Shown here piece after piece: positions 4,401 through 60,900 of a stretch of DNA of 64,000 nt (positions are counted from its first letter, which is position 1; every line of letters begins with the position of its first letter). Source of the DNA: Nereocystis luetkeana (lineage: Eukaryota > Sar > Phaeophyceae > Laminariales > Laminariaceae); NCBI GenBank assembly GCA_031213475.1, contig JARUPZ010000005.1, positions 8,800,988 to 8,864,987 of the forward strand. Reading direction: 5' to 3'. Position numbers and translations under genes: made by a program. The notes under the pieces are model-generated. The model was not told the DNA's origin, did no database searches, and was given only the letters and a program-made list of their open reading frames with translations.

Positions 4401-7400
4401 CTACACGCGATTTCCCCGTCCTAGCGTCAGTCAGAGCCCCGCTGATTTTGGCGGCTATCGAGGTCGGTTTCAAGGAAGACGCCTCTTCGGCAAGATCTGC
4501 CTCTCCTGGCTTGCGTCCTCCGAGATCGGTCGCCTCCGCATCCGCTTTGGCCGATGTCAGCAACCACGCGATCAGGTCCATGGCTCCCGCCTGTGAAAAT
4601 CGTTGAAACGGAAGTCAGGGTAAGGCAAGGCAACGCAAGGTCAAACAAGGCAAGACACGGTAAAGCGCGACACATGAGCGGAGTTTTGTCAACGACAGGC
4701 GAAAATTGGCGAGCTGAAGCTCCGACCCTAATCTGGAAGAGAAATGTAAGGCTTGTTTCTGATTCCGCCTTCGGGCGAGCGGTAACACCAAACAAATTGA
4801 AGCAGAAACAAAAGTGCCGCGCGAAAGGTCAAGACCAAATTGACTCAAGTGGGATTTGCAGAACAGGATCCACAGCTTTGAATAGGACGCTTTGTTACAG
4901 TTTGAAAGCACATGACAAGAGAGACACGTCCGACATCCCAACCCGTGCTCCACCGGCCTTCACGACTGCGTGTTCTGCATTCTGCCATGCCGAACGAAGT
5001 ATTGGAGTCAATGATAACAGAAACACCTGGATCCAAGAAAGGGCGACATGGCAAGACTGCGGCTGTGCCCCCATGCCAACTTGAGGAAAACCGCACTTCG
5101 CGTCTAGCGACCAAAGCAAAGACAGTCACGCAGTCGGCCCCGCAGTGTAATCGTCTCAAGTGCGAAATGCCCAAACACAACGCTCGTGGTGAAAAGACGA
5201 CTGCGAACACGAAGCCATTGCCTTTCCCCCCCCCCCTCTCCCCTCTGAGAAATAAAGAAAAGACCGGCTCCCCTCATTCCCTGTAACAATCGCCGGCCCA
5301 CCAATGTCGTTAATCGCTAACTCATTGTCGTCGAGCGTTTGTTGGGGAACTCACCCTTCTTGCGACTCGCCGGACACCTCACGGCGCTTTGCGCTTTGTG
5401 CAAAGAATGTCTGTTTGGCCCGTGAAAACCCACGTGCTCCGTCCCGGCATCGTAGAGATGCGAGGGTCTATGGCCATACGACTACGGCCATGCATGATAA
5501 TGAGCACACACCCCCCCTCCTCCTCCTGTCAACCCCCCCCCCCAGCGTACACGCCCCTCTACTCACCTTCTCCCTGGTCTGGCCCGCGATGCAAGCGCGG
5601 TGAAGTGGCGAGTGCCCCGAGGGTCCATCCTTGGCGTTAACGTCGACGCCTGCTTGGCTCACTAGGAACTGCGCCACAGGCTTGTGGCAATGCTCGCACG
5701 CGAAGAAGAAAGCCGTGCGTTCATCCTGTAGTGACAATCGGAGGGACACAGGTCGAAAAAGTCAAAACAAACCCCTGCGTCGATCCTTCCAAGTTCATGC
5801 TGAAGGTCGTTATTGTTGCTTGCGCGGAATGAGACTTCAATACTAGCGTGCGGACTGCCCCACCGGAGAGTCGATTTTTCCGTGTTGGTGTCTGCACAAC
5901 GATCATCTCGCCCGAGACCCTTCAAGAGAGAGCCTAGACAGTTACGCCTTGGTAGTGGCAACGGCAATCTTGCCATGGCCCAGTCAGAGGGACCCTGACA
6001 GTCCCGTGGCCGAAGCGAAGGCACGAACGCAAGATCTTGGACTAAGTGTGACTGACTCCTGTCGACCTGTTTTGCGTTCGTCCTCCCGATATCATGCTTT
6101 CCTTTGCGCCGTCACAACACACAACAAACAAAAATATAAATATAGCCAGCACATAGTATCTATACAGTAGTTCACACCACGATCATCAATGCCAGTACGA
6201 GGGTCACCTCGGCTCGACGTGGCGTGCCACCACACCTAAAGTCGACATGTCGAGCCATCGCGTCAATTATCAATACCAAGAGCTGGAACGCCGTAGACCT
6301 CGAGGACACAGAAGGCACAACATGCCCACCGACTACGAACTGTCCTCTCCAGACCCAGACTAAAATAGGTGACGCCGAGCGTACTTCACAAGGCGATTTC
6401 AGCGGCCTAGCCGCTCTTTCGAGCACTGCCACGGAAACGATGAGCGTCGTGCTCAAAAACAAACATTGCCACGTCTCTCAGAGGGGATCCGGCCAAAAAC
6501 GCAACGGATGTTGTGCCACTGAGGCTAGGTTCCGTACGGGGGACTGGACGGTTTCCTTTCCGACACCTTGCTACCGATCCAAACTGATCCATTATTTGCC
6601 TATTTTGGCCGTCGTATGTGACTAGAAACGCCCCGATGCCTCTGTACTCCGTGCTGCGGGACACTAATGGTTGCTATAAACGTACACCAAGGTTCCTCTC
6701 ATGCAGCCAAAAATGAAACAAGCTCAAAAGCTGTCTGCTACGTTGCGGCTGCTTCGCTTGGCCGAGACCAAACCATTGCGTGGAAATCCTGCCTTGTCTC
6801 CTGCACGATATACTTGTTCTAGTTCACGAAGAAATGTCCTCCCTAACGCTCTCTCCACCTTGCAGCACAGAGTCGCGTCACAAACCTACACTGTCTCGAC
6901 CCCAATATAGCAAGAGTTTGTGGTCTTTTAATAACAGAGAGGAGCCGGGGGGGGAGGGCGGTGAACGCGAGGTTCAGTCCGGCCAAGGTTAGTCGCAACA
7001 CCGATATGACCACAAATCCGTTTGAATCCGCAGTTGGCACACGGAGACCTTCAGGTTCAGCAGTAGAGCAACCTTCAGCAATAGGGCAAACCAAGTACCA
7101 GTAATCGCTTTTTGACGATGGAAAAAAGACGTACCAGGTACTGAACAAGCACACCTCCTTGCTATATTTTGTCGGGCGCGCCTGCAGCACGCCTAGCGCT
7201 CAACTCACCATCGGCGCACACACTGGAACTGCGACAAATCCAATGCACCAGGGGGGCTCCGGGCGGGTGACAGGTGTAAGAACACCAGTCCTCCAACGTG
7301 CGGAAGCGTACATAGACTGTACCCTGGCCGATATCTCGCTGGCCAGGGGATCATCACTTTCCTGAATGAGCTGAACCTCATGACACCCGGACAACAATGG

Positions 7401-10400
7401 GCGCCCGTTGCCGGTCGGTACTGTAGCACACATACCATCGGTACTGAAACGACGAACCCACTGGTACGCCGGAGCTCGAAAGCGCAACATACCTCGCCCA
7501 AACAATAGCCCTAGGCCACCAACCTCTGTAAATATCGACTGACACATCTCTGGCCTATCGACATTACTTACGACCAACATCACACGCCACGCCGGCCGAA
7601 CAATGAGGAGCCCCCAACGACCCTCGAAAACGACGTTTATTAGGCCGCGCCCCCCCTTGTCTTCAACAACTCCAATCGGCCGCCAGGCCACTATACCCAC
7701 CGCTGTACCGAAGTAGACTATCGGTGTACGTGGCATGCTCCTAGAACGTACCAGGTATACAGCAGTACTCACGAAGGCGCCGACAAGTCCACAACTGCTC
7801 CTGACATAACCCTGTCGACTCAAAATCCAGTCTACCGCCGTGCGACCTCCATTTTTCGTGGGCAGAGCGAACGAACGCCCTTGAACAGATCTCTATGTAA
7901 CTTTCTTTCGAAGATAGGCCCTGTCTGCGGTAGTCGGTGGCTCTATTCCGAGCATCGGTGAGAAGCAGGGGGCGTACATGGAGCATCGCTATAAAACCTC
8001 ACGATAGACACGAGACCAAACCCCGAGCACGTCATGATGCAGAGTCCGATGAGCAACGAAGAGGGATTGTTTTTCCGGAGATTGAACCCGGCTAAAATAC
8101 TCCAAGATAGGCTCTCTTGACCAGAATCAGCGACCGCTCCATCGCACCAGGTCCGGACTGGGGCTGCCCAATTCCCACGATTTCAACGCCAAAAAGCCGC
8201 GACGAACAAGAAGGGGTTGCCGCCGGCTAAAACGCACATCGCCGCCGCCCATCGCCCGAAAAGCCGCGACCCGCGACCATTACAGGGCTTGAGATGCTGC
8301 TCTCCCAGGATAGGCAGGCCAGCCAACGCATCCCACCGCACCTTCTGCCGGCCGCGGCACACACACCGTACATAGGCTACGCTATATCTCATGCCGTAAG
8401 TAAGAGAGGGGGGGCGCCAGAAAACCTACTTCGCATTGAGAAACGTTCCCGATACAGATGCGTACGAAACAACCAGGTGCGAACACAATATTTACTACTT
8501 GCAGTCCAGACTCTATACGTGTATACCTGGTACATAAATAGCAGGTACCTGGTATTAATCAGGATTCAATTTGGAATATTCGGTACTACTTGTACTGCTG
8601 TCTGGTGTACATGTCATGGTAGGGGTATGCAGCATGCTTGTGGCGCTATCATCTGGAAATACTTGAGAAGTTCGGATGTACTTTACTGGTGCGCTCGTTC
8701 GCCGAACTTGCCGTCGTGGCGTTTTTTACAATAGGAAGTACCGGTAGAAAATAGTCCCAATCTCTCCCAGCAGCGGCAGCCTTATCTTAATACGGTAGCA
8801 GCTGGTGGCAGGGCAAGCGAGCAGTGAAGAGACTTTATAATCAAACAAAAACAAACACAAGCAAGTGCAGCTGTAGATCACACCTCTCTGCGGTGTAAGA
8901 CCAGAGACTCGTACGGGTATTATTACTATTAATAGGTTATGATTCGAACACGTCGACAAATTTCCAAGAGCCGTTCATGGCTGGGCGGTGGGTCAGAAGA
9001 AGTCTGGCCTATTCTGCTTTTCATTTTTCTTCCACGTACCGGTACATGCTCGTATACCCTCGAGACTCCAAGTCTCGTATGTATCGTATGATAGAATCTC
9101 TAAAATACTACCAGGTACGTATACTGACGTTGAAGTTATATTCGAAATATAGCGCCTACCGGGTACCGCTTCATACCTGGAGGGTCCTTTGTGCTTTGGT
9201 TTGCCTGTTATTTTCCCTTGGTTCATTGTCTTACTCTGTTTACAAGTAGTGGCGTTTTTCTTCTTTTTTTTCCAGCTCGTTCCAATCAAGTGTCTGCCAC
9301 ATCCCCTGCGGAGGGGGCAAGACAGCAGTTTATTTCTTCTAATTCCTCTTTTTGTTATTTCTCTTTCGATTTGTCTCCTTGTTTATGTTTTTCTGTATTT
9401 CCTTTCGTTTCTCCATTTCATAAAATGTGTATATCGTGCCTGTCGTATCCAGTATGATGACATGATGGCATGGAATTGCTTTGCCACTCTGTGCTTACCG
9501 ATTACGTGGCAACATAGTGCTCGTATCTCTGTGACGTAGCTTTGTGGCCACAGAACTTGTACGAGTATCTCTTCTATTATTGGGATTGAAGAATAGCGCA
9601 CGGACACTGGTTGTGCTGGATGTCGACGGGTAGAAAGGACGGAGAACACACACAACTGGTGATAAAAAAGACCATGGGCGTCCTGGCAATCGTACGTACC
9701 TGGTACATACTATCTGGTGCTTGGTATCGGGATAGATGCGTACGTACGTGGTAGCTATTGAAATAATACCAGGTAGATGCAAATTACTGCTGTACCTGGT
9801 AGATATTAATACAGCAGTCAGTAGTTGCCCCAGGCTATGATATACTTGTACAAAGCTCTTATGCAACGATAGAATACATGGAGAACACCGTATTGCACAA
9901 CACACTTTACTCTCTCGTACAGCTTTCGTACGCCTGATTTGTGAGGCACGTATCAAAAGAAGGATGCCTGTATGCTGGTACAACACATGATTACAGCGGT
10001 ACTCGTACAACTGCTGTACAAGTACTTCTCATTGGGGTATATACGTAGATGGCCGTTTAATGGTTGTCCGCGGGTGTGCATTCGTGTGTTCACGTTTCAC
10101 GTGTTCGGAGAACGAAATAACTCCGCAAAACTAAAAAAAGGCACCATCCCATCGAGATCTCATACCTACCAACAGTACGGACTCACTGCCAGACGCTGTT
10201 TTGTGCATACACGACGGACACAACACATGTACGACGGACACAACACAGCAATCATTCAAGTCAACAGGATTTTTTCTAAGCATGCCGAACTAAAAACCTG
10301 TACAGCGGTAGTACCAGGTGTTTGGTGATAGTTACATATGCTGACCGGCTGCGGCCTCGATGCTATGATATTAGCGTACGAGCTGTCGATACGTTCCTCC

Positions 10401-13385: not shown

Positions 13386-16300
13386 ATGTCGCACCGTAAA
13401 TTTGAGGCACCTCGCAACGGTTCGCTTGGGTTCCTGCCCAAGAAGCGGACGAAGAAGCACAGGGGGCACATCCGCTCCTTCCCGCGGGACGATGCCGCGA
13501 AGGAACCGCACCTCACGGCCTTCATGGCCTACAAGGTCAGGATACCCTCCCGCACTCTTGTGTGGGTATTTCTGCGCCTTTCTTGCTGTTTCGTGTGTTT
13601 TGTTTCCCTGGCGAGCTGTCGAGCAACTACAGGTACAATACTGCTGTACTAGCTGTACTTTCTCCGAAACCGGCCCGTCCAACCAAAAATGTGTGGTCAG
13701 GGGATACGAAGTGCAGCAGTAGATCAGGGGCCGTGTGAGATGAGGGGAACTAAAAGCTCAACATTTCGAGAAGACGACTTCGTAACGCAAGATCTACGCC
13801 GATTGCTATCGCTACCTTGACGTATACCAGATAATAACTATTAATAGTTACAACACATACCAGGTACCAGGTACAAATGCATAAATTTTTACTCATGAAG
13901 CATAAATTTGAACCGAGTGTAGAGGTCTGTATCACGTACAATTACCAGGAAGTACTGGTATGAATTTAGCACGTCGAGTTGGCGTCTGCTTCGTACAGAG
14001 TACACCTCGTACCGAAATCGCCAAACCATCGACGTGTGTGCCGTTGCGTGCGTTTGTATTATGTAGGAAATAGCGAACGGGAGGGAAACGCTTACTCGTA
14101 TTTCACGCCACCTCTTCGTCAAATGTCGGCGGCGGGAGACCTTCCTCCTTTCGTGCCGCCTCACCCCCCCTGCACAGCGAGCGTGCGATCGGCCTACTCC
14201 ATTTGCACTGCTGTTCGCTTGCCTCCTTTCCGATATTCCCCCCCCCCCACCAACATCCCACGGCAATGTTTGACTCAACGTAACGCCTATTTTCTGTTCT
14301 CGACGTGAAGGCCGGGATGACCCACATCGCGAGGGAGGTAGACCGCCCCGGATCAAAGATCCACAAGAAGGAGGTGGTCGAGGCTGTCACCATCCTCGAG
14401 ACGCCCCCCATCGTTGTGGTGGGAGTCGTTGGCTATGTCGAGACCCCCACCGGTCTTCGCACCCTCACCACGGTGTTCGCTGGTCACCTGTCTGACGAAT
14501 GCAAGAGGAGGTGAGCTGGAAGGAGTGAGCAGGGCGTCTATTAAAATGTTGTATTAATAGGCGCAATTTATACCTGGTGGAGTGCAACGTACACACAAAT
14601 GTTATGTTTCCTGCTACTTACATTATGTGATATACCTGGTATTAGCCGGTAGTAGAATGTCTGGCGTGCCCCGTGCCAGCCTCCGTGTGCGAAGTTGATT
14701 TTTCCAAAAGTTTTTTCATGTTTTATTTACCGTAAGTTTTTTTTTATCGTTTATGGAAGCATGAAAACCAGGCGGGGCAAAGGCATGGTTAGCTTCTGGG
14801 TGAATTGAAACAGTAGTAGTGAGGTGTTGATAATTCCGCATATATCACACGTTTAGCCAGGCTCCGTGTTCGAAAGTATAGATAATTTTTCCTATTAATA
14901 TTAATAATAGACAAAGTTTTTCATGTTTCTTCTACCGGAGGCGGTTTTTATCGTTCATGGAAGCATAAAACCAGGCGAGGCAACGGGATGGTTATCTCCT
15001 CGGTGGATGAAGACAGCAGAAAAAACGAGCCTTGCCAAAAGTCCCGAGAACATTGACACTGGAATCATGTCTGCCGCCATTTTTTTACAAAGACTTTTCA
15101 TGTTTCTGCTCTAGCTCCGAACGTTTCTATCGAGCCTTAATTTGGCAGGGCAGATCTGAGCTCCTTGGTGCACTCCCGTGAGTGTGGCAAATCGACAGCA
15201 CTTTTAGTGTCCTTCGGGGCGGACATGGTCGCTGAAGTTTAAAAATGTGGCTCCAGGCGCTTGACTTTCTAGTTTTTTGTACTGTAGTCAAATACGTTTT
15301 TTCGGGTGTAAATAGAACGAGAAGGAGAAACGTGCTCGTAGCTTCTGGGTTCTCGTTCTGGTCGTCCTTCATAGCAGAATATTAAAGTTGAACACAGTAG
15401 TAGAAACTGGAAGTTCGAGCGCCTGAAACCACATTTTCAAGCTTCAGCGACCATGTCCGCCCCGAAGGAGGGCACGAGAAGTGCTGTCGCTTGGCACACT
15501 CACGGGAGTGCACCAAGGAGCTCATATCTCCCTTGCCAAATTTTGGCTTGATGGAAACGTTCGGAGTTGGAGCAGAAGAATGAAAAGTATCGTGCTTGCA
15601 GTGTCTATATGCATATGTTGTCGGGACTTTTTTTTGTTGGTGGGCAGTGCAACACAGGTGAGTATTAGTATTAATAGCAAGTGTTGATAGTTCCGTACCG
15701 TATGTATTACCGCTTCAGGTAGGGTCGGTGTGCGAAAGTAATTATAATTTTCCTACATGAGTTTTCACGTTTTTTCCACCGAAGGTTGTTTCCATTGTTT
15801 TTCGAAGCACATAGAAACTAGACGAGGCAACGTGATGGTTGGCTGCTTGGTGAATATTGAGAGAGTAGTAAAGGGTTGATAATCCGGCATTGGTCAAACC
15901 CTGAACCAATCAGAGATACCTTCTGGGCCTTTTGGCTAAGATCATGTGTAGCATCTGTTCTAATCAGTGTGAAAACTGATTGACACTCATCGAGTGTCAT
16001 TTTCACACCTGTTTTTGAAATTGCCGGGTTTAGCGTTGCTTGCAGCGTTCCGGCTTGATTTCCTCGGCTTTCACTACCGCCTTGTGAGGTCTGTCCCCTC
16101 CGGCTCTACCGGTCGCGCCGGTGGTTCAAGTGGTCAACATCGAATTCCACTTGTTGAGTCCTGGGTTCGAGCCCCAGGTGGGTCGGACTTTGACTTTATT
16201 TGCAAAAATAAAAATAAAAAAGGATTCAATTGTTGAGAGCGCCTTGCAGCGTGAGTAGGCACAATTCGATGCGAGTCGACGAGGGAAGAAAAGGCTGAAA

Positions 16301-22680: not shown

Positions 22681-22681
22681 T

Positions 22682-23032
22682 AGCCGGTCGCCCCGGTGGT
22701 TCAAGTGGTTAACCTCGAATTCTAATTGTTTGAGTCCTGGGTTCGAGCCCCAGGTGGGTCGGACTTTGACTTTATTTTCAAAAATAAAAAAGGATTCAAT
22801 TGTTGAGAGCGCCTTGCAGCGTGGGTAGGCACAATTCGATGCGAGTCGACGAGAGAAGAAAAGGCTGAAATCTTCTCGCGATAAAAATGAAGGCACGTAC
22901 CGTAGCGGGAAGGGGGGAGAAGAACCTGCTATGTGACCCCGGATCTGAGTTACGAGTTGGAAGGAGAGAGAGAAGAAGATGGGCGAAGATAATTAATGGG
23001 ATGAGAAAAAAAAAGAAGAAAAAAAGTGAAGC
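22682..23032 (+). mobile_element. tRNA-derived SINE, full copy
   Basis: It shows the same A and B boxes (TGGTTCAAGTGG; GGGTTCGAGCCCC), body and A-rich tail as the 16.1 kb copy, with few differences. It is preserved end to end and carries an A/G-rich 3' tail. Confidence 0.9.
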
Positions 23033-41095: not shown

Positions 41096-44000
41096 CTACC
41101 GCCGCTCCCCCAGCTCCCCCCGCCCCCCCCCGTCCCCCCCTTCCTCCACACCCTCCCCCCCCCCCTCGTCGCTGCCATAGCTCGCGGCAGCTGCAGCAGC
41201 GGAAATCTTAGCACGCGCATTCTCTCGCGCAGCGCGATGCCGCCTGGGTGGCCTTCGCCTCACAGCCTCTTCCTCCTCCTCCTCCTCCTCCTCCTCCTCC
41301 TCACCCCCACCACTCTCGCTCGAGGCCTCAGATGCTTGGCCCGTCGCCCGCTTCCTCGGCGGCGCCGGCGACGCCCGCGCGCGCTTACGTCTACTGGGCG
41401 CGGGCACGCTTCCAGTCCCAAGCGTGGTAGCGGCGACAGCGGCATCGGCGGCGGCGGTAGTAGTAGCGGGAGGGGGGGTGTCCGCCGCCTCCCCGTCAAT
41501 TTCCTTGGGGTTTCCTTTAGACTTGGCGGCTTTTTTTTCTGCTGATGTTGCGGCAGGGGCAGGGGTGGCGGGTTCGGTGTTGGTGGCGTCGCCTGCCGCC
41601 GCGGGAGCTCCAAGTTTTTTTCGTGGGGTGCCGGGCGGTGTAGTCTGCTTTTTGTCGTTGGGGTCGGTGTCTGGCCGCCTTCGCTTCTTCGTCTTGCTGT
41701 TTTTTTTCTTGACGGCCTCGACTTCGAAGGTGGGCAGCACGGGCGGGTCCTTGGAGAAATAAGGGTGGTCTGGCCAGACAAGGGACAACAAGGAAAGCGT
41801 GCAAGGAAAACAGCAGACGAGGAGGCAAGGGTGTAACGAGGGGGTAAGGAACCACTAAAAACTATAAAATGATTGAAAAAAAAAGCAAGCAAGCAACAAA
41901 ATATACAGTAGAAAATTCAGCAGGGAAAAGCACAAAACAAGAAAACCACGCAAGGAAACAAAAAACAAGGAGGCCAGGAGGGAGCCGCGGAAAAGCTAAA
42001 ACCACAAAACGATTAAAAAAACAGCAAGCAACAAGTTAGGGAAAAACCTAAGCATGGGAAAACAAAGCAAAGACGCGAGAGGACATATCCAAGCGAGGAG
42101 GGATGTGACAGGTACGCCAACGCTAACGCCCGCCCAAAGGGAGAGGCCACCATTTTTTTTCTATTATTATTTTTTTTTTTGCTCATCCCATTTAGTATCT
42201 CCGCCCATCTTCTTCTCTCTCTCCTTCCAACTCGTAACTCAGATCCGGGGTCACATAGCAGGCTCTTCTCCCCCCTTCCCGCTACGGTTGCCATGCCAAA
42301 AAAAGTGTTCCTCGTCCAACTGGCACACGAAACACAAGATCACAGGATTTGCTTAAAACGCATGAGGCGCGCGGGGGGGGGGGGGGGGGGGGTACCTCAT
42401 TACCATGCACGGCCATAGCCAAGTGACCACAGACCCTCGCATCCCCACAATGCCGGAACGGAGCACGTCGGGCTTTCACCGACCAGGCAAACAGTGCTTG
42501 AGCCAAGCGGGGGGGCTGACGGGAGTAGCTGCACCCCACCCCGGCTCACCCCAACCCCTCCAAGAGCACGCCCAACCCCCCCACCCCTCCCCCATGAACC
42601 CCACAAAAAAAAAATGAAGAGAGCACATCCCTCTCCCGCGTTCACCACGGACCTTTGGTGATCTGCGTGCTGAGCGCTCGGTGCACCATATCCGGGTGGT
42701 CCCTCATCTCCTTCTCGAACTTGTTCTTGAGTTGTTTCTGCGTCCGCTCTCCCTCGAACATCTTCACCATGCGGTCGAAGGACAGGTTGTACATCTGGAT
42801 ACCCTGCACCACAACAACAACAACAACAACAAAAGAAAAAAACACCACACATGGGCGAGGGTGTTCGGTTGTTGTTAAACGCTGCGAGTTGCTGTCAGGA
42901 TTGCTGTATAACCCTGACCTTAATTTATAGCTACCTGGTATGTTGGTATCATACGTCAGCACACAACAAGAAAGCGCGACGACCATTTTTCTTGGCAGCG
43001 GACGAAAACATTAACGCGCACCGCACCCTGTAAAATTTGATGACGTCGTGGGGTTTCCAGCGCATGGGCGTTTCTCGGGTGGTGAAGGAGCTGGCGGAGG
43101 CTGCCGTCGTTTCGTCTTCGTCTACCTCCTCTCGATTCTCGTCATCGATGCTGCTTGCTCCTTGCACAATCTGAACATTTGACGTACGGAAAATTACAGA
43201 GGAGAGGCAGCCGTGAACAACAAAATCTGCATCTAGGGATCCGAGACCAAAATAAAAAAAGACATGAACAAACAAATGAACACCTACATGAATAAATAAA
43301 TAAAAAAAACTACGGTACCGGCATCGAAACCTAGTTGCAGGACGGTCCTGCCGTCGGTAGTCAGCAGTGGCACGGTCGGTAGACGGTGGTGTGGCTGTCG
43401 ATCACTAGCTGTCCGTGGTCAGCAGTGTAGCTGTCCATCCATGTAGTGCGACTGTCGTAGTTGGCACCCACCGGCTACCGACAGCGACACCGCCAACTAC
43501 CGACAGTCACACCGCTGACTACCGACCGATGCCCCTCTCTCCTAGACTCAGTACCCACCACAGCTGACTTACCCACCGCTACCCGTCCCCCAACCCGTCT
43601 CCATACCCAAGCAAGCGCTCTACATATGAATACTTACTTGAGGCATATACTCAGGAAGTACCCGGATACTTACCCGGGTAGGGCAGTGCGGGATATGATC
43701 TGGATGTACCCGGGTATATACCCGGGTATGACAGTAGGGCATACGCTTTGGATATACCCGGATATGACCACCATAATAATGATGTGGTGTCCGGGTACCC
43801 CAGAGTATCTACGTATAACCTACTAAACATACCCTTGAGTACCGAACACTCACCAGATCGGCGTCATTAACAACGAGCTTTCCGTCCTTGAAGACGACCT
43901 TCATCGATTGCGTCGGCGGGGGAGGAGCACCGCCTGCCAAGGTGAGAGCGCGCTTCCTGTTCCTTGCGGCGTCGGCGGCCTTGGCGGCCTTCTCCTGTAC

Positions 44001-47000
44001 AGCAGTGGGGGAAACACAAAAAAAAAAAACAACAACAACAGCAACAGCAAAGCAGGCAGACGAAAAAAACAATAACTATGGTGAGCAACGAACAAATAAC
44101 AACACGCAAACAATATGTACACGAATATCATATCATATCGGCTTCGCTCCGCGGGCGGCCTACGCCGCCCGCTACGCTCGCTTAGGAAGAAAAAGTACAT
44201 CGAATTTTACGCGAAGCAGACAGAAGGTCGATGATTGACATATTTTTCATTGTTGTAGTTGCAAATTGGCGACTTGAAAATGCCAAGAGTCACATGCCGT
44301 ACGTACGTACGTACATACCCCAGGTAGGCTTATGATTTTCTTCTTTCGATATGCTGTATGATATGTACCTGGTATGTACGCACGAGAAAGCACAGCATGG
44401 CACAGTAGCACCACAAAAACAATGAGAATGAAACCGAAAAAATCGGAAAGAGAAAAAACTCCCCGTCCCCTCTCATGTAATAATTGTCTGCCCCTGGAAC
44501 ACCTTGCACCAGTCAAAGAGAAAATATATTAAAAAAAATGAACAACAGAGCTTCTCTCTCAGCCTCGTACGCCGCCCGCCCCTCTCTCGACCACCTCGCC
44601 ACCGATTCGGTCTGGGTCAAGCTTTCCTCCCTCTCTGTCACAGTGATCCCCGTTGCCCGCCCCGCGTGAAGCCCGGTGCTCACCGTGACCCTCGTTCGCC
44701 AGCTCGACGATGTCGATGGTCAGACGGCCTCCGTCTCTTTGTAGAGTTCAGCGCGGTCGTAAAAATAAACACCGCTTGAATGTTAGCTTGCAATCACGAA
44801 CGACCCTTATGGACTCGTACATACTCAAGTCTAATTTTTCAGAAGGAGGCAAAACAGAGCCCATTCATGCTTCCCTTGTGTCTCGAGGCACACACGACGC
44901 CTAGCCACGAAAACCGCGACCGCCCTCCTTGCAACCCCCCCTCTACCCGCCAGCATCCGCCGACACCCGCGACGGCGCCGGGCTCGCCCGCGTCGCCGGG
45001 CTCCGACTACACACACGCCACACGAAACGGAAGAAGAAAAGAGGAAAAAAAAACTGATAGTGCAAAAGAAATTTCAACCAGCCGGTGAAAAAAAGCGAAA
45101 CAGAGCCTCTCAGACCGCTGAAAAAACAAAATCGACTTTTTCTTTTTTCCGAGTTGTTTTTTCTATTGTTCCGGGAAAAAAGGTGTGGCACGAGAAGCAA
45201 GCACGCAAAGAAAGCAAAGAACGCGAAGAAAGCACAGATCGTAGAAGCAACAAAAAAATCGAGGGAGACTCGCTGAGCGTGAGGCAGGTTAGGTGCTTAG
45301 AATCAAGTGATTTTAGGAAAAGGGTAAACGTAAGTATGTTTCTATACACGTACGTGAACAAAAACAGAAACACAACAACTTCATAACAGAACCACACCCA
45401 ACACGGAGAAAAATCGAGATCGAATTCACGCACGATAGAAATCTTCACCGGTAAACGTATGAATAACGTACATACGCACATAGAATGTGTATTTTTACAT
45501 ACCAGGTACAACATACGAACATATGTGGAAATGTTTCGCAGCAGTAAATTTGTAAATAACAATAAGGATACGGTTCGGGTTTGACAGTGACGTCAAAGGC
45601 GGCGGTGCGATCACTGCCGACACACATCTCTGCAGCCGCATCGGCCTCTATGATGAAGAAGTCTTTTGGATTTTTCCACGTATTGTGAAAAAAAATCCTC
45701 ATTAAGTGTTCCTGAAAATATTCGTTGAAATGTTCTTCGAGATGTTCATTAAACGGTTCTTGCGCGCGTTCTTTGAAAGAACATGTCTTCGAAAGAAATT
45801 TCCTCGAAAATTCCTCGAATTACCTTGGCGCCTTTTTCTCGTGGCTTGGGGGGAAGCCTGCTCTTGTAGGACGTGCAAAAGTCCGCGATTTTCATCGTCG
45901 ACACCTCCTCGGCGGTCAGCTCTTTCTGCAACACAAATATCGTCCAGTCAAAAGGGGGGAGGGGCGGGGGGGGTACTCATTTGTTGCTTGCCCTAGTGAG
46001 GTGACCATTGACCACGCATCCCTTTCCAGACGGAGCAAGCGGGGGGGGGGGGGGGGGGGGGGGGGTGCACATTGGTTGCTCGCTCTAATATACCTGGTAG
46101 TATTTTACTATTACAGGGGACCATGGTTAATAGGACCAAATATTGTTGGTAAAAATAGGGAAGTACATAGGGTTTTGTGTCCACCGTAGGTCCTATTTAA
46201 TGTGGTCCCCCGTAATACCATTGACTATTGACCACGCCTCCCTTTCGAGACGGAGCAAAGGAGGGGGGGTAGGGGGGGGGGGGGATACAGGTCACGGGAA
46301 TCGTTGTTGTTGGTTGTTTGCCAGATTTTCGTATCAGCTCGTCGCCAAACTTTATGATACACCCGGTAAGTCACCGGACAGGGTACGACGCATCATCCAT
46401 CGCAGGCCTCGCAACACGCACGCAAGGAAAGATACATCTCAAAAGTCGTGCACGAAAGATCCCACCGGACTATACTTGTGGATCTCGGGCCGTTAGAGGT
46501 TAGAGCTTAGAGGTCCGCAGCATGGACCGCATTGACGCCCCCCCCTCAAGCTGACTGACTGCGGGCACCTCCGGAATCGATCCGATCAGGCCCGGTCCTC
46601 GTGACCACCTGCGGTGCCTTGACCCTCTTGGTTCTGGCAATCCCTTGCTAAATACACGAAATAACTCTTGCTCGGCTCACGTCGGCCGTAAGGTAAGACG
46701 GCTACAAGGGACCCTCGCTTCGCGACCTCTCCACGGCGACTTCTCCGCGGCTTCATCGGCTCTGACGGCGAGGCATAGGCTGCGACACTGCTGCTCTTGC
46801 GTCACTCTCCTGGTGGGCACGTCCCGGAGGAAGACCTTATACGAGTATGCTCGTATGAATGTGTTGTCGCGAGACAGGCGGCTCTAAAATTTCTAGACGG
46901 GAAGATTAAGATTAAGAAAAAGCGGGGGAAAAAAAATGCGCACCCATACAGGTAGAATTAAAAAATAAACAAAGGAGAAGAATATAAGATACAGCAGTAT

Positions 47001-47381: not shown

Positions 47382-47412
<31 letters not shown>

Positions 47413-49275
47413 CGTACAACATACCTGGTAGAGCCTAATATCATACGTGCAACAGAACACATTATCCGACTGTGAAAAAAATATGACAAAGAAAAAAACA
47501 CAGTCAGTGTTCGTACCGCAGTACCGCTGTAGTCAGCGACCCTACCCGGCGTATTTCCAGACACCTTGGGGAGGTGGGTCAAACAACGCAACCTGCGACT
47601 TGGTATAAGTTATCACGCACCAAAGAGGCGAACACATACGTATGCCGCAATTTTTCCATCTCACAGCTCTCGTTTTTTTGTTTTTGTTCTCAAAATATGC
47701 AAGCGAGCGAAGGAGCGAGCCACATCAATGCAACCGACCCTCCGTATGTGTGTGTTCTTCACATTAAACCGTTCTTTCTACCCGTCGACATCCTGCACAA
47801 CCAGTGTCCGTGCCGATTCTTCAATCCTATTAATAGAAGAGATACAAGTTCTGTGGTCACTAAGCTACGCCACAGAGATACCACGTTGCCACGTATGCAG
47901 TACGCACAGCAGTGGGCAATGAAATGCCATGTCACATCATCCTATTAATAGATACGACAGGCACGACATACACATTCTATGAAATAGAGAAACGAAGGGA
48001 AACAATCAAAAGAGAAAACAAAAACAAAGAACACAAATCGAAACGTACGTCCTACTACTATTAATATTAATACAACCAATTTAAAAACCGCACCAGCTTC
48101 TCCTTGCCCTTCCCCTTCTTCTTCCCGGCCACCGCGCCGCCCGCCGCCCCCCCCCCCCCCCCCCCCCCCCGCCGCCGTCGACGCCGCTCCCAGGCTCCAC
48201 CTTGTCTCTTTGCAAGGCGTCGCCATCCTTACCCCTCGAGACGGAGCCATCCGAATGCTTCTGGCCGATGCGGAAAAGCGTCACATGTACGACATCATCA
48301 ACACGCGCGTTGCATGCGGATCTGATGGATCACAGGACAGCGACGGCCGAGGGCCCCTCCAAGTCCAGCACAGCGACAAGAAACGCTTCTGCTACAAATA
48401 TTACTACTGTGTACTATACTACGATAATAATAAATGCTACTCGTACCTACTGGTACTACTACTACTACTACCAAAACGTTAGCCCAGAAAGAAATATCCC
48501 AAAGGGCTGCACAAATAACGGTGTTATGGTCATACCGCTCCTCGCCTCTTCGCCCCCCTCCCCCTCCCCCCACCCCCACCCCCCCCGCGCTCCCCTTCTC
48601 TCCCCCGCCTTCCCCCTCCGCCCCTCCTCAACCCTCTCCCCACCCCCTTCCCCTTCCCTCAGGGTTTCCACCCTTGTCACACTACACCCCCCCCCCCCGC
48701 ACCCCATTCATCACCTCTAGCCCAGCGTTCGCGCTCGCGGTCCTCAGCGAACTCCCGGGGGGCGCAAGAAAGCTTGACCCCGGTCGAGGCAGGCCCACCC
48801 CTCCTCCCCCCACCCCCACCCTCGCCCCGCCTCCCACCCCGGCCCCCAACTTGTGCACGCCCCCTATCCCTGCCGAAAACCCGGGCATCCGGCCAGCAGA
48901 CGATGCCCTGGCAGCCCCGCCCCCCGGCCGCGCCGCTGCCGCCCCCACCCCTGCTCCGACCATGATCCCTCGCCCCCCCCCGCTTCCTCCTGCGCCTGCC
49001 CCTCTTCGAGGGGGGGCAGGCATGGCCGCGATCAGGGGAGGGGTTAAGGTCCCTCGATTCGCAGCAGCAGCAGCAGCAGTAGCGGAGGAAAAAGAAGGGG
49101 CCGGGGAAACAACCGCGCCCACGGGACGACCACCCGCGGAAAGACGGGAGGGGGTGGGGAGCGGCGGACCGTCCGTCGGTCTCCGGATGCCGGTCGGTAT
49201 TGATCCTCCCGCGAACGCTGTAGCTCCTCCTGTCGGTACTGCTGGTGCTGTGTTTCCGCGAGATTTCGGGATCGC
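41096..49275 (-). CDS. BDP1: TFIIIB subunit BDP1 (B'') with SANT domain; 5' end not found
   Basis: BDP1 works with TBP and BRF to recruit RNA polymerase III. Predicted exons in transcript order are 49275-48715, 48260-48201 (weak), 45925-45824, 43994-43854, 43170-43027, 42803-42653 and 41769-41096; phases agree throughout. The SANT domain spans the exons ending 43027 and 42653: RWKPHDVIKFYR, GIQMYNLSFDRMVKMF, ERTQKQLKNKFEKEMRDHP. Ahead of it lie two other BDP1 landmarks: STMKIADFC (like the TMRDF block) and MKVVFKDGKLVVNDADL (the 'basic-X-DG-X-acidic' block). Exon 49275-48715 is 187 residues of Gly/Ala/Pro-rich sequence, assigned only by phase and position. The donor at 42652 (GTCCGT) is weak. 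The last frame stops at 41096, but an overlapping acidic frame runs on to 40657, so the C-terminus is unsure. No start codon was identified. Confidence 0.75.
42160..42288 (-). mobile_element. SINE 3' fragment
   Basis: The tail and 3' body of the SINE family (GGGATGAGC; GTGACCCCGGATCTGAG on the minus strand) are present, and the tRNA-like head is missing. It is in a BDP1 intron. A 5'-truncated copy like this is expected from target-primed retroposition. Confidence 0.85.
42371..42505 (+). repeat. G-tract repeat element, antisense copy in a BDP1 intron
   Basis: A run of about 20 Gs, then CATGCACGGCCATAGCC, then ACCCTCGCATCCCCACAATG and GGAACGGAGCACGTCGGG. Antisense to BDP1. Unlike other copies, its G-rich end is some 600 bp from the next acceptor, with the SINE fragment in between. 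Confidence 0.75.
42806..42836 (+). repeat. (CAA)n microsatellite
   Basis: A CAACAACAA run just upstream (minus strand) of a BDP1 acceptor, where it reads as the GTT-rich tract before GTGGTGCAG. Confidence 0.9.
43325..43560. repeat. Imperfect palindromic cluster of CGGTAGTCAGCAGTG units
   Basis: CGGTAGTCAGCAGTGGCACGG near 43355 is answered by CACACCGCTGACTACCGACC near 43509, with further direct and inverted units between. Located in a BDP1 intron. Confidence 0.6.
44016..44040 (+). repeat. (A)n(CAA)n microsatellite
   Basis: An A run followed by AACAACAACA, close to the acceptor of BDP1 exon 43994-43854. Confidence 0.85.
44460..45020 (-). repeat. Long dispersed repeat, copy B (about 560 bp)
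   Basis: The reverse strand is homologous to 25135-25710. It lies inside the 1.8 kb BDP1 intron between exons 45824 and 43994. The A/T-rich stretch near 44525 differs from copy A. Confidence 0.75.
45945..46062 (+). repeat. G-tract repeat element, diverged subfamily, beside a BDP1 acceptor
   Basis: G-rich run (45951-45973), then TACTCATTTGTTGCTTGCC, then GACCATTGACCACGCATCCC and GACGGAGCAAGCG, then a second long G run. On the BDP1 strand the core is followed by a C-rich tract and the acceptor of exon 45925-45824. Further diverged pieces lie at 46216-46285 and 49742-49840. Confidence 0.65.
46109..46216 (+). mobile_element. MITE (TA-target hairpin family), full length
   Basis: TTACAGGGGACCATGGTTAA pairs with TATTTAATGTGGTCC and CCCGTAA. 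TA lies on both sides. It is inserted next to the diverged G-tract element. Confidence 0.92.
46286..48200. other. BDP1 intron interior, no further exon recognised
   Basis: It includes a CAA microsatellite (47384-47413), a triple TACCAGGTACCAGG run (47058-47082) and several CTATTAATAG motifs. A stretch at about 46500-46880 is GC-rich and unlike its surroundings but matches no family I know. A C run of roughly 30 bases lies at 48141-48172. Confidence 0.4.
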
Positions 49276-49287
49276 CTGTCAGGGGCG

Positions 49288-49570
49288 GGGGGGGAGGGCG
49301 AGGAAAAGGGGCGGGGGATGAGGGAGGCGTGTAGGGGAGGGGGGAGAGGGGGGTCATCATTGTCATGCATGGCCGTAGTCGTATGAACATACACCCTCGC
49401 ATCCCTACAGTTCCGGGGCGGAGCACGTCGAGTTGTCACCGACCAGGGTAGACATTGCTTGCACCAGGCGCGAATCGACTCGAGGTGTTGCAGAGAGTGG
49501 CACAAAGGGTGAGCTGCATCCTACTAAGAGCCCGCTTGTGAGGCGGACTTGCAAGAGGATGACAGCTTCG
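49288..49570 (+). repeat. G-tract repeat element, long antisense copy beside a BDP1 acceptor
   Basis: A G-rich lead (49288-49350), core CATGCATGGCCGTAGTCG, ACCCTCGCATCCCTACAG, GGGCGGAGCACGTCG, then a long right part ending GTGAGCTGCATCCTACTAAG, CGCTTGTGAGGCGGACTTGC. The right part matches the copy at 58935-59165. On the minus strand its C-rich end leads straight into acceptor CCTGACAG for exon 49275-48715. Confidence 0.8.
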
Positions 49571-49579
49571 AATGAAGCG

Positions 49580-49700
49580 TACTCAATGTCGTGCATGGTC
49601 GTAGTCGTACGGCCATAGACCCTCGCATCCCTACACTGCAGGGACGGCCACGGCGTGTAAAGGACCATGCCGACATTGCTTGCACCAAGCGCGATGCGCC
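49580..49700 (+). repeat. G-tract repeat element, core copy without lead G run
   Basis: GTGCATGGTCGTAGTCGTAC, ACCCTCGCATCCCTACACTG and GACATTGCTTGCACCAAGCG. Placed directly after the preceding copy, so the two form a head-to-tail pair. Confidence 0.75.
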
Positions 49701-50084
49701 TTTAGGTGTTCCGCGAGATGGGTAGGGGGTGCGTCGGCGGGGACGGGGGGGGGGGGGGAGGGGCATACTCATGCGTTGTTTTTTGGCTTGCCCATTATAC
49801 CATTGACCACGCACCCACTTCGAGACGGAGCACCGTTCCGCCTCCTCAGGCGAGGGGATCGTCGACTGTCGGATAAGGGCATGCAGGTATATTGTACGAT
49901 CAGCCCTACTTGCAGACCGAGCATACAAATGCAACTTGCACACCTCCCACCCTGCTCCCGCTCGACAACCTGATCCCACCCCAACCTGATCACCAAACGA
50001 TCCCAGCAAAAAAAAAACACGCTGAAACCAGGATATCCGTACACTAAGCCTGTGAATCTCTAAAAATTGCAGACCTGGCGTGCA

Positions 50085-50318
50085 ATTAGGGTTCCACGTA
50101 TTGTACGTGGAGGGGGGGGGGGGGGGGCGCGGGGCAGGGGGTGGGGTGTGCTCATGTCATGCATGGCCGTAGTCGTATGACCATGGACCCTCGCATCCCG
50201 CAATTAGGGTTCCACGTTTGGTACGTGGAGGGGGGGGGGGGGGTGCGCGGGGCAGGGGGTGGGGTGTGCTCATGTCATGCATGGCCGTAGTCGTATGACC
50301 ATGGACCCTCGCATCCCG
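50085..50318 (+). repeat. Two tandem copies of a 118-bp G-tract element unit
   Basis: Each unit reads GCAATTAGGGTTCCACGT, GTACGTGGA, a G run, GGCAGGGGGTGGGGTGTGCTC, then CATGCATGGCCGTAGTCG and ACCATGGACCCTCGCATCCC. Copies are nearly identical, so the duplication is recent. Confidence 0.85.
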
Positions 50319-50948: not shown

Positions 50949-51165
50949 CTACTACGGGGGACCATACTAAGTAGGACCTACGGTGAATACATAAACTTGA
51001 ATATTTCCCTATTCTTACTATTACGGGGGGCCATAGTTAACAGGACCAAATATTGTTAGTAAAAATTGTTAAACATATAGGTTTTTATGTATACCGTAGG
51101 TCCTGTTAACTATGGCCCCCCGTAATAACAATATTTGGTCCTATTTACTATGGTCCCCTGTAATA
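50948..51165 (-). mobile_element. MITE split by a second MITE of the same family
   Basis: The outer copy is the flanks 50948-51018 (TACGGGGGACCATACTAAGT ... CCCTATTCTTAC) and 51128-51165 (ACAATATTTGGTCCTATTTA ... CCCCTGTAATA), in reverse orientation. Removing the inner copy and one TA restores the family sequence TTACTAACAATATTTGG. Confidence 0.88.
51019..51127 (+). mobile_element. MITE (TA-target hairpin family), inserted in another MITE
   Basis: A complete copy (TTACGGGGGGCCATAGTTAA ... TTAACTATGGCCCCCCGTAA) bounded by TA on both sides. Its terminal repeats are perfect, including a G/C pair (GGGGGGCC) that differs from other copies. This insertion shows directly that the family duplicates TA on insertion. 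Confidence 0.93.
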
Positions 51166-51527
51166 GTGATCGCATTGCCTGGTAGGACGTCTGAGATGGC
51201 ACAAAGAGCTGTGGGATTAAAACGCGCCACTCGCTAGCCTGCCAACAGAAATCACGAACATCACCTCCTGCGCTGTTGGACCACCCTCTGCAACCTTACA
51301 GGTGTGTGCATACTACTGCTTCAGATGTCAAGAGCAGAAGAGGCGCATGTACGATAGTGAAACTCACCAACGAACACGTACCAGAGTACGTACTCATGTC
51401 CTGGTACGTCAAGATCTGCTCCAACATCTACAGTGAGTATTTCAAAACATTTTTACAGTGTGTTGGTGTGCCTGTCACGTTTGAAGTGTTGTAAACCAAC
51501 TTGCGATTGTCTTGTGTACCCCGACCC

Positions 51528-51635
51528 TACTACGGGGGACCATAGTTAATAGGACCAAATCTTGTTAGTGAAAATGGTTAAATATAAAGGTTTTATGTGT
51601 ACCATAGGTCCTATTAACTATGGTCCCCCGTAATA
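51528..51635 (+). mobile_element. MITE (TA-target hairpin family), full length
   Basis: CTACGGGGGACCATAGTTAA with TAGGACC pairs with GGTCCTATTAACTATGGTCC and CCCGTAA. TA lies on both sides. It is 360 bp from the nested pair. Confidence 0.92.
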
Positions 51636-51977
51636 GCGCGTCGATCTGCTGTAACATGTTTCAGTATACGAAATGGTACTGGCCGACATCAATTGGGAGT
51701 CCAGCCTGCTGCAAGTATTATCGTCTCGTAGACCCTGGTAGCATCCAGGGGAGTCACCGGCCAGTAGTCAATCGCTAGGGAAATAATGGAAAACGCGCCA
51801 ACGGTTCACGCAGCTTGCAAAGTTGAGTATCGATCGATCTGGCGATCGGTTTAACTCACAGCTGACGTACTTTTTTAGTATTTTAATAGAGTGCATTCGT
51901 ACATGCCAGGTACCTGGTAGGCAAATATCTCAGGGGGAAAGAATTTTCACTCCTTGACAGACAGCAACGTTGCCTCA

Positions 51978-52508: not shown

Positions 52509-53774
52509 ACACCTCGGACAGATCAGCTCACCGTAGCTCGAGCTAGCTTTTTTCGGGGGTAGCTCACCAGTGAGCTATATGAGCTACATGAGCTAGCTCG
52601 TCCGCCCCCGGCTTGAGCTATAGGCGGTAGCTCATCTGCACATAAATGCCCAGTGTGAGCTATAGGAGCTACATGAGCCAGCTCATCTGCCCCCGAGATG
52701 AGCTATATGAGCTACATGAGCTAGCTCATATGCCCCCGAGATGAGCTATAGGCGGTAGCTCATCTGCCCATGTTTTCAAAGCTCGAGCTATAGGCGATAG
52801 CTCATCTGCACATGTTTCCAAAGCTTGAGCTAGAGGCGGTAGCTCGTCTGCACATGTTTTCAAAGCATGAGCTATGGGCGATAGCTCATCTCTACATATT
52901 TTCAGGGCGTGAGCTCCTCTGCTTGTTTTTTTCGGCGGTATAGATGGTTTTCTGTTCCTGCCTCTCTCTTGTCTCTTCTTCCTTGCACCGTATGGTGGGC
53001 TGTAGCCACGAAAGCCGTGCTTAAGGAACGGTGTGTACGGATTGAGATGATGCTGATATTCAATACCTGGTCTAGCCTTATTAATGGGTGGAGGGTGGGT
53101 TGGACGGGTTGAGCTTTCGCTGGCGTTGCAGCGTACCACCAGTAGTAGCCTTGCTATCAATAGTCATGTATTGTATTTTTAGAAGTCAAGTATGCGAATG
53201 AATGCTAATAATAACATTACTAAAGATTAACTTTTAATACTGATAGCCTCTAAACTTAAGCTTACCTTTAGCCTCGGACAGATCATGAGCTAGCTCATCT
53301 GCATGGTGAGCTCTCCAACCGATTTGTAGATAATGCTAATGCTATTCCTATACATACACATACTCGTATACATTCGCACTTGCCCCCAAGGGCGGGCTTT
53401 GTCGGCTACTCATCTTACATGCATACGTTGCCGAGGAAGAGCTACAATGAGCTATGATTACAAACTCCGGGGGTGAGCTATAGGCGGTAGCTCATCTGCA
53501 CATGTTTCGAAGGCTTCAGCTATAGGCGGTAGCTCATCTGCACATGTTTTGAAGGCTTGAGCTATAGACGATAGCTCATCTACACACATTTGCCCAAGGT
53601 GAGCTATAGGAGCTACATGAGCTAGCTCATCTGCCTCCGAGATGAGCTATAGGAGCTACATGAGCTACACATGTTTTCCCCGCTTGAGCTATAGGCGATA
53701 GCTCATCTGCACATGTTTTCAAAGCTTGAGCTATACACGATAGATGAGCTAGCTCATGATCTGTCCGAGGTGTG
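52509..53774. mobile_element. Inverted-terminal element of 1.27 kb packed with GAGCTATAGGCGGTAGCTC units
   Basis: The left end CACACCTCGGACAGATCA is repeated inverted at the right end (TGATCTGTCCGAGGTGTG). TATACAT occurs beside both ends (2 bp offset on the left), a possible target duplication. Two blocks (52540-52920 and 53280-53750) carry dispersed palindromic GAGCTA..GGCGGTAGCTCATCTGCACATG units; a copy of the terminus (CCTCGGACAGATCATGAGC) recurs internally at 53274. The unique middle (52930-53270) codes for nothing I recognise. It parallels the layout of the 35.1 kb hAT-like element, but the superfamily is undecided. Confidence 0.72.
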
Positions 53775-56012: not shown

Positions 56013-56051
<39 letters not shown>

Positions 56052-57870: not shown

Positions 57871-57902
57871 GGAGCTAATTTAACTACCTAAAATAAAAGT
57901 GA

Positions 57903-60900
57903 TCAGTAACCGTTGATCGCCTTGGACAAGAAGGCCGGCAAATCGTCCGGGTGCACCCTGGTCTGCTCCGTCGTATCCCTGTCCCTAACGGTCACACACC
58001 CGTCCCCCTCCAAGGTGTCGAAGTCAACGGTCACACAGAAGGGAGTTCCAGCCTCGTCCATCCGGCGGTACCTTCGGCCTGTCCAAACGCCCAACGATAA
58101 CGCCGACATAACAAGAAATCGAGTAGAACGTGTGGATATGTCAATGAAGGCGGCTGGGGCTGGAGCTGGGGGTCGGGGTGGCGGGGGGTGGTGAGGGGTG
58201 GGGTAGGGGGTACGAGTGGCGGGGGGAGGGGGGCGGGGGGAGGGTGGGGGTGGAATTGGGGGGGGGGTGTACTCGATAGGCGAGATGTACTCGATCTCAT
58301 GCATGGCCGTAGTCGTATGGGGGGGGGGGAGGGGTAATGAGAGGGGACGGTGACGGGGACGGGGGGGGGGGGGGGGGGTATTATGAGACCGAAAAGGACA
58401 GGGCGGGGGGCGGGGGGGGGGGGCGAAGCGCTCTTGCCGTAACCCGCGAAAATCAGGGCGCACGACGCTCCTTTGGAAAACAAGTACTGGTATGGCAGTA
58501 CCATAAATTGTGTGGCACGGGACGGTATGGTATGGTATTGCATGGTTCTAGATAAGACGCATGGTCCGACATGGTGTGGTATGTACATCATGACGCGCCG
58601 ATGCTCCTGCAATATCACAGCACACCAACCGCGAATCGGAAAAAAAAAATGACTAGGAAAACAAAACAAAAAACGACACGACACGCCAAAACCTGTGCTG
58701 CACGGAAGAAACTAGGGGGTGGCTCACCAATAGCCCCGGCTACATCCCAGAAGGCGTTGTGCCTCAGCCGGACGCTCTCGTAGATGCCCCTGGCCTTCTC
58801 CATGAGCTCCGGCTTGTTCTTGACGAGGGGGAAGACGGCTACCTTGATGGGTGCCATGCGAGGGTGGAACTTGAGGAGAGTTCGCTTCTCGCCGCCGACC
58901 TTTTGAAAAGAGGAAGAGGAGGCGGAAGGGTGGGGTGAGGGGGGGGGGGAGGGGGTACATCGATATCATGCATGGGCGTAGTCGTATGACCATAGACCCT
59001 CGCATCCCTACAATGCCGGGACGGAGCACGTCGGGTTTTCACCTACCAGACAGACATTGCTTGCACCAAGCGCGAAGCGCCCTGAGGTGTCTGGCGAGTC
59101 GCGTCAAGAGTGAGCTGCATCCTACTAAAAAACGCTTGTGAGGCGGACTTGCATATGGATGACGACTTCAAAGATTATTCGACATATTTTCCGGTGTGGC
59201 CACTTTCCAGAGACAGCAAAGGGAGTCCCTGTAACTTCCTCTTGGGTGCCTCGCCATAAATACTACTGGTGCGTGATACGAGCATTCTCCTTGTGCGGAG
59301 TAAAGGTTCTGCACCCAGCACAAATGAACTAACTCGACCACCAGCTGTGACCGACCGCCAAAACAAAAAACACACACACACGAGGGGGAGGGGGCGAGAA
59401 GGACATACGATGAAAGGGGAGCAGGCTCGATATAACAAAAGAGGGGCATGCTACGAGGGGGAGGAAGGGCGGTACGAAGAGTCGGGACAAGTCGACATAC
59501 CGGTACCCCTGGTAAAGGTTTAGACGCAAAGACAATATGATCAGGTATGGGGATTGAGGGGGGGCACGATGTTTTGTTTCTTAACCCCTTTAGTACCGCA
59601 GTCCCGATTTGGGGGCGAACAGGTCTAATTCCAAGTGATTTGTCCCCAAAACGGGACTGGGGTCCTAAAAGGGTTAAGAAGCGGGAATCAGCACTTTTTA
59701 TTTTTTTATTTTTTCGCCACTGACAGTTCGAGAGAAGGCGGAGGAGGCGGGAAGTAGGGGGGGGGGAGGGGGGGGGGGGTAGTACAAGGTGAATAATCTG
59801 GGTCCCCGAAAACTTCCAGCGTGGAATCGATTGTTGAGATGAGTACAAACAAATTGAAAAACAAGAGCAACAGGAGCAGAAAAAAAAATGGGGAAAAGGA
59901 CGAAAACCCACTAAAATAAGGAAAAATACAAACAAGAAACGAAAACTAAAAAGTGACCCCTGGAAGAGCCTCTTAGAGCGCGTCACCTCGTCCTCGTGGT
60001 AAGCCGAAACCATGACGGCCAGGAAGAGCCTGTCGACCCCCAACGAGGGCTCGATGACGTGGGGCACGTACTTCGTCTTGGACCTCTCGTCGAAGTACTC
60101 CATCGACTTGCCGCTAGCCTCCTGGTGTTGGGTCAAGTCGTAGCAACCCCGCGCTGCCACGCCCTGTCCAATCAGAGCGCGGCGCCGCGTGAAAAAGGCA
60201 CACAGTCCAATCAGCGCGCGCACGGTCCCGCATGGGGGCAATACCAAACCACAGCAACACACCGCGAGAACAAGCAGACCAATCAGGGCGCGGGAACCGC
60301 GTGAAAAATAAGAAAACACAGAGAGCAGCGCGCCGTGTGAAAACCAGACCAATCGGCGCACGGCACCGCGTGAAAAGTAGACCAACCCGCCAATCAGCGC
60401 GCGGCGCCGCGTTAAGAGCAAACAGCGAGGAGACCGAAACCGGGGACGGGGTGCGGGGGGGAATACGGGGGGGGGGGGGGGGGGGGTGAGTGCTATGATA
60501 ATACCGAGGGAGATACCACCACCCCGGGTGAACAATATGTTTTCGCTCATCCCTTCAATGGTTGATGCCCTAAGCGCAGGCGTGGCTCGTTGCACTAACT
60601 GCTGCTGTCCCTCATGTAAAATAATAGCCTTCCCGTTCTCACTCTCATGCATGCGTAAACGTTTGTCGCAGCGCTGATTCTAAAAAGCGCTACGCGTAAC
60701 AGCAATGCGTGTCCGGACAGCGCTGATGCCACAATCACATTCGTAACAGCAGCGAGCGCTGCTGCTGATGTCATGTCAACGTTGCGATGGTGCGCACGTA
60801 AAGTGTTGCTGCTGTTGCAACGGCCGCAGAGGTTGAGCGCGAAAATGTGTAGCAGGGTGTTTTGCCACAATCCAACTCGGTTGGGTTATACAAATATTCG

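Follow-up and report, generated by a model that had tools for sequence, protein, structure and literature searches.

Short interspersed nuclear elements (SINEs) can carry a 3' tail that derives from a long interspersed nuclear element (LINE), and SINEs in the strict sense also have an RNA polymerase III-type head. The present analysis deals with a dispersed, poly-C-tailed repeat in a 64,000-nucleotide stretch (the window) of the brown alga Nereocystis luetkeana (assembly GCA_031213475.1, contig JARUPZ010000005.1, positions 8,800,988 to 8,864,987, forward strand), and with its placement relative to splice junctions. The window sits on contig C5 of an assembly of 465 Mb in 1,987 contigs. Like the SINEs with a LINE-derived tail, the element is short and very abundant, and its tail is common to a LINE with a reverse-transcriptase (RT) domain. 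On the other hand, an RNA polymerase III-type head was not found: 11 loci gave no tRNA, and in 4 loci no plausible Rfam family matched the copies (promoter boxes were sought by eye only). An origin of the element from an RNA gene finds no support in the same two results. No literature report on a SINE with a poly-C tail was found.

Judged by description and not by sequence, the closest described kind would be RTEX-N1 of Ectocarpus. RTEX-N1_Ec32 is presented as a non-autonomous element of ~600 bp whose 3' end is conserved with autonomous RTE-X LINEs and as the most abundant single family in Ectocarpus, with >6,000 copies; the LINEs of this alga are described as often 5' truncated and common within introns (PMC12477816). 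As far as these descriptions go, the two elements are alike in size, non-autonomy, a 3' end shared with a LINE and abundance in a brown alga. The main text of that source on RTEX-N1 and RTE-X makes no mention of 'poly-C' or 'insertion preference'. Introners, as portrayed in PMC9860276, also resemble it as repeats in introns of several genes of an aquatic eukaryote, whereas the present element makes up only part of an intron, and the introns tested are common to paralogs that have no copy on the acceptor side. No literature report joining introners and brown algae was found. The element is likely to be a non-autonomous, poly-C-tailed retroposon of ~531 bp, without long terminal repeats (non-LTR), copied by a LINE and targeted to C tracts, with host introns that predate the copies.

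The repeat and its probable LINE partner

The 18-base core of the element has 12,757 exact occurrences in the 465-Mb genome, 6,374 forward and 6,383 reverse, while the reversed core, used as a control, has 0. The repeat is thus far above chance, and the dispersed family proposed in the initial annotation is real. In the viral contigs and prokaryotic genomes of public collections, a 21-base core finds no exact match. The full element measures ~531 bp, according to a 531-position model from aligned copies that come mostly from contig C1. The long G run by which the family had been recognized is the reverse complement of the 3' poly-C tail, so that the shared repeat stands and its orientation is reversed. 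The window holds 8 element copies, each with E 7e-16 or better, together with LINE-tail relatives, and head-to-tail runs of copies occur elsewhere (for example in L018 and L022).

Opposite the tail the copies stop at many points, and 5' truncation is frequent: 43 truncated copies stand against 20 full-length ones among 63 rows, all preselected for a kept 3' end and by a score cut (a model start above 32 or a score of 40 or below led to exclusion). The overlapping loci L002 and L005-L008, as well as L003, were left out of the counts. Model ends also vary widely in the unselected table. The combination of 5' truncation and a constant 3' end is a trait of non-LTR retroposons, and the element is read as a 5'-truncated retroposon, with the G run as complement of its tail. 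By kind it is an unremarkable retroposon, set apart by its C-tract target.

The last ~100 bp and the C tail of the element resemble those of a second repeat, a LINE-type element with an RT domain. The element model also matches LINE-type tails in L004, L012, L022, L024 and the window; one of the six printed tails (L024) was formally aligned to the element, over ~130 columns. The corresponding stretches of L024, L016 and L004 are 78-81% alike. The evidence for the RT consists of Pfam RVT_1 matches, observed beside a tail at one locus only: at L024 the LINE tail occupies 4581-4667, and two RVT_1 pieces (5669-6274 and 6202-6597; Pfam E 1.3e-9 and 5.1e-11) lie ~1 kb from it on the same element strand. 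This LINE copy looks decayed, because the RT pieces are in different frames. As in RTEX-N1, the 3' end of a short non-coding element is thus common to an RT-bearing LINE, which is how a short parasite usually relates to the LINE that it exploits.

C tracts at insertion sites and near splice acceptors

The insertion target looks like a pre-existing C tract, because a C run of at least 5 lies within 30 nt of the 5' end in 20 of the 43 truncated copies, against 3.5% of random sites. A G run is found at this junction in one of the 43. The 5' side of truncated copies is out of reach of the copy's own tail, and the same feature is also present in loci that were not chosen for genes. Among the full-length copies, 17 of 20 have a C run of at least 5 within 30 nt of the 5' junction. 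Target duplications that contain the C run were recognized by eye in L009, L022, L026 and L028. Several observations weigh against C-tract targeting: some of the C runs on the 5' side are the tails of adjacent copies, the full-length copies may begin with C's of their own, and the 63 rows include a few overlaps (one L022 copy, for example, appears as two rows). Moreover, in the automatic test for target duplications only 5 of the 63 rows reached the 95th percentile of the control or exceeded it, against an expected ~3, and two of them belong to the tandem duplication in the window.

The mechanism that we propose is target-primed reverse transcription. The LINE enzyme would nick the DNA at a G/C run, and the exposed poly-G strand would pair with the poly-C end of the element RNA and prime reverse transcription. 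Copying would often stop early and leave 5'-truncated copies, and each new copy would take the orientation of the pre-existing C tract. C tracts near acceptors would then give rise to copies in gene orientation with the tail towards the exon, and G tracts just past donors to inverted copies that also face the exon.

The initial annotation had stated that the G-rich end of the repeat, which is the tail, faces exons at splice junctions. The acceptor side of this pattern recurs in dynein heavy-chain genes, whose exons were located with PF12774 (77 matches in 15 loci). Twelve loci were used, picked without knowledge of the elements; three with longer open frames (C7, C21 and C29 at 3.09 Mb) were left out. 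The sample covers the AAA_6 stretches of this one gene family, and 52 introns of at least 150 bp, 57.8 kb altogether, were counted (the script minima were 100, 150 or 200 bp). The 74.1 kb of dynein loci hold 10 element copies and 1 LINE tail. Nine copies lie in introns between known exons, all nine in gene orientation, with tails 20, 35, 47, 127, 321, 710, 903, 1236 and 3731 bp from the next exon core; these distances were taken to conserved exon cores and are some bases off the true splice sites. Of the nine tails, four are at most 130 bp away from the next exon (simple uniform placement gives P 0.014, or 0.021 when the element length is allowed for) and three at most 50 bp (P 0.009), with cut-offs that were picked after the distances were known. 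In one C23 intron the C tail of the element is the only C tract seen directly before the acceptor AG, which would agree, for this junction, with the suggestion that the element supplies splice sites; the tail does not serve as the pyrimidine tract in all cases.

Outside the elements, the dynein sequence has 43 C tracts of at least 6, of which 10 lie within 130 bp of an acceptor and 0 within 60 bp of a donor. Of the 30 G tracts, 3 are found at up to 60 bp from a donor and 2 at up to 130 bp from an acceptor. When the C tracts are taken as the targets, the acceptor excess has P 0.13. Since C tracts cluster near acceptors, this excess is accounted for without new introns.

The donor side is weak and consists of one window copy and two dynein copies. 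The latter two are inverted, one of them being a LINE tail, and are found 45 and 49 bp beyond the exon that is the last one known in their stretch, with P 0.10 given the ~260-310 bp of sequence past those exons.

Some of the counts weigh against an exon-facing habit. One of the nine dynein copies is a 52-bp fragment that adjoins a full copy and is perhaps not independent; dropping it gives P 0.016 at 130 bp and 0.007 at 50 bp. The orientation over all 11 dynein copies is 9 against 2 (P 0.065). The coding sequence beside 51 copies, those of the window included, shows no clear excess at the tail side: at a score of at least 6, it follows the tail in 9 sense and 5 antisense cases and precedes the 5' end in 8 sense and 3 antisense cases. 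These copies come mostly from C1 loci picked around exact cores, with at least 300 bp of flank, and the codon model was built from dynein exons only. For them the alternative already allowed for in the initial annotation, namely copies away from exons, is favoured. The acceptor-facing habit of the tails is a real lead.

Host introns and competing explanations

The elements in the dynein genes and in the glycine-tRNA ligase (GlyRS) gene of the window fill only part of their introns, which measure 438-4553 bp; in the C10 dynein intron the element takes up 144 of 438 bp. The four dynein introns with a tail near the acceptor were compared with their paralogs by eye, and some partners are visible on one side only. 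The C23 intron with a tail at 20 bp follows the same IE residues as a C14 intron, and in C9b and C35, of which only the donor side is visible, donors lie there as well. For the other C23 intron, whose tail ends at 47 bp, C10 and C16 have introns at the same position. The position of the C10 intron (35 bp) matches C9a, and also C16 and C12 with a donor inferred from the translation, while the match of the C14 intron (127 bp) is to C8 and is confined to the acceptor side. No partner intron carries a copy at that acceptor; in the C14 partner a copy lies at a distance of 903 bp. The copies appear to be younger than the introns tested, because paralogs without an acceptor-side copy share their positions and because the elements never fill an intron.

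At two of these acceptors, exon or acceptor sequence is repeated around the element. Upstream of the C10 element there is a decayed repeat of the acceptor and of ~25 nt of the exon start, so that this element lies between two acceptors; the duplication takes in exon sequence, while the element itself is intronic. In C14 a decayed copy of the acceptor lies between the tail and the exon. Duplications of this kind are also present in introns without the element, so they may come from a separate process that acts locally at acceptors.

Among 51 introns of at least 200 bp, 5 contain a decayed copy of the start of the exon that follows, with scores of 31-42 against 23 or less for the others (L031, L030, L043+L032, L029+L041 and L034). 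The acceptor is included in four of the five, and three of the introns (C16, C9b and C28) have no element. In L031, the intron after the exon core at 3453-3602 (gene orientation) apparently starts with GC and not GT (CTCAAG/GCGAGT), at a position common to GT-starting introns in two paralogs.

It is conceivable, if doubtful at present, that the poly-C tail homes to the C tracts of 3' splice sites, possibly also to the G tracts that follow donors, and that the copy is inserted with the tail towards the exon. Target duplications could then copy the acceptor and the exon start, and the new copy would be absorbed by the intron with splicing kept. Such homing would be a splice-tolerant route of intron lengthening. 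If a retroposon has a preference for the C tracts at intron ends and for gene orientation, introns would have a simple way to grow yet stay spliceable. Brown algal genomes are described as rich in long introns (PMC12477816).

Random insertion followed by selection is an unlikely account of the same placement. The survivors would be copies with a tail that acts as a pyrimidine tract, or with a target duplication that rebuilds the acceptor; this agrees with the duplicated acceptor and exon start around the C10 element, with the decayed acceptor copy after the C14 element, and with copies that show no clear exon excess in loci picked around exact cores. However, the 5' C tract of truncated copies is a feature of insertion and not of splicing, also in loci not chosen for genes, and acceptor duplications arise without the element too.

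A coincidence of small numbers, by which the copies of the window and of the dynein genes would face exons by chance, is rather improbable. The dynein copies are just 11, from one gene family, the cut-offs behind the probabilities (0.007 to 0.10) were chosen with the distances already known, and the 51 other copies show no clear excess; yet the dynein loci were picked blind to the elements and the pattern had been named beforehand.

It is highly implausible that the element is an introner, as the initial annotation had suggested from the tails near exons at several junctions; it would then insert into exons and become a new intron, with one or both splice sites of its own. The C23 tail before its AG would suit such a role, but the ends of the element are not the ends of the intron in the nine dynein intron copies or the 432-bp GlyRS copy (432 of ~1,087 bp), and at all four acceptor-side dynein introns the position is occupied in paralogs without a copy at that acceptor. 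The element, read as a retroposon targeted to C tracts, probably does not create its host introns. That a repeat faces exons at splice junctions is, taken alone, no evidence of intron creation.

Copies, exons and other features of the window

The element copies, LINE tails and exons of the window are as follows.

5334..5539, + strand: 5'-truncated element copy, opposite in orientation to the ankyrin gene (nhmmer E 1.1e-54, model 10-216)
5567..5725, - strand: ankyrin-repeat exon (Pfam Ank E 1e-8)
42377..42509, - strand: 5'-truncated element copy (nhmmer E 5.7e-34), in gene orientation
42645..42803, - strand: Myb-like exon, read as BDP1 (Pfam PF15963, Myb_DNA-bind_7, E 1.5e-8)
45961..46039, - strand: 3' tail of the related LINE family, a diverged relative (element model E 1.3e-7; LINE-tail model E 3.9e-21)
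46220..46258, - strand: LINE-tail fragment (LINE-tail model E 9.3e-9)
49336..49575, - strand: 5'-truncated element copy (nhmmer E 3.1e-66), upstream of the putative acceptor at 49275
49575..49720, - strand: 5'-truncated element copy (nhmmer E 6.7e-37), abutting the preceding one
49747..49849, - strand: LINE-tail copy, a diverged relative (element model E 0.0041; LINE-tail model E 5.2e-25)
50115..50199, - strand: short element copy, first unit of a 118-bp tandem duplication
50231..50317, - strand: short element copy, second unit of the same duplication
57906..58078, - strand: last GlyRS exon (match to solved glycine-tRNA ligases)
58259..58319, - strand: 61-bp element copy whose tail stops 181 nt short of the GlyRS exon that starts at 58078
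58745..58899, - strand: GlyRS exon after the 432-bp copy (match to solved glycine-tRNA ligases)
58939..59370, - strand: 432-bp element copy (nhmmer E 9.7e-133), tail end 40 nt before the GlyRS exon start at 58899

The window copies are all 5'-truncated, and those at 50115 and 50231 form one 118-bp tandem duplication. The LINE tails at 45961..46039 and 49747..49849 are 2 of the 5 sequences used to build the LINE-tail model. In the ankyrin gene the tail ends 28 nt from the last exon base at 5567, where a donor is visible in the sequence; the placement beside this donor is as annotated, and the copy, which had been called sense, is inverted relative to the gene. The BDP1 and GlyRS copies had been called antisense and lie in gene orientation. 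Their placement before acceptors holds at 58899 and 58078, two exon starts that agree with the sequence, while the exons at 45925 and 49275 are putative. The copy at 42377..42509 lies downstream of the Myb-like exon, with no known acceptor beside it. The G run had also been read as the pyrimidine tract of the acceptors, which does not fit all cases: at 58078 the copy is separated from the exon by non-tract sequence, and the tail at 45961..46039 stops ~36 nt before the exon start at 45925, with TTTTGACTGGACGATATTTGTGTTGCAG in between.

The host genes named beforehand are supported by Pfam Ank for the ankyrin gene, by Myb_DNA-bind_7, which we take to be the Pfam family of BDP1, and by the three GlyRS exons, which when joined give an in-frame match to solved glycine-tRNA ligases (E 3e-44). 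Two GlyRS exons scanned singly with Pfam gave no family, nor did the putative exons at 49275 (48685-49278, - strand) and 45925. Searches of solved structures with the Myb-like exon and the 45925 exon gave no matches. Over the GlyRS exons (57906-60178), glycine-tRNA ligases of ~480 residues, presumably the bacterial ones, are better matched than those of ~690 residues, presumably human (E 3e-44 and 2e-22, respectively).

In the genome at large, the EsV-1-7 motif, which is expanded in brown algae, has 150 scored matches among 1,710 candidates and 0 in 14 control genomes, which may include no alga. A U2 spliceosomal RNA gene lies at 15916-16099 of the window (130.6 bits). It is followed by a ~350-bp repeat, at 16109, which is found again at 22684 and 33376. 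An inverted-repeat element of ~110 bp, probably a miniature inverted-repeat transposable element (MITE), occurs at 46108-46217, 51018-51127, 51527-51636, 63247-63358 and other places, with GGGGGACCAT at the end of one copy. A hairpin-forming repeat of ~100 bp lies at 59573-59685, where it has an Rfam match far under the cut-off of that family, and also near 19780, 30502, 31791 and 51974. Finally, a 42-base tandem repeat forms two arrays, 52742-52915 and 53474-53743, ~0.6 kb apart.

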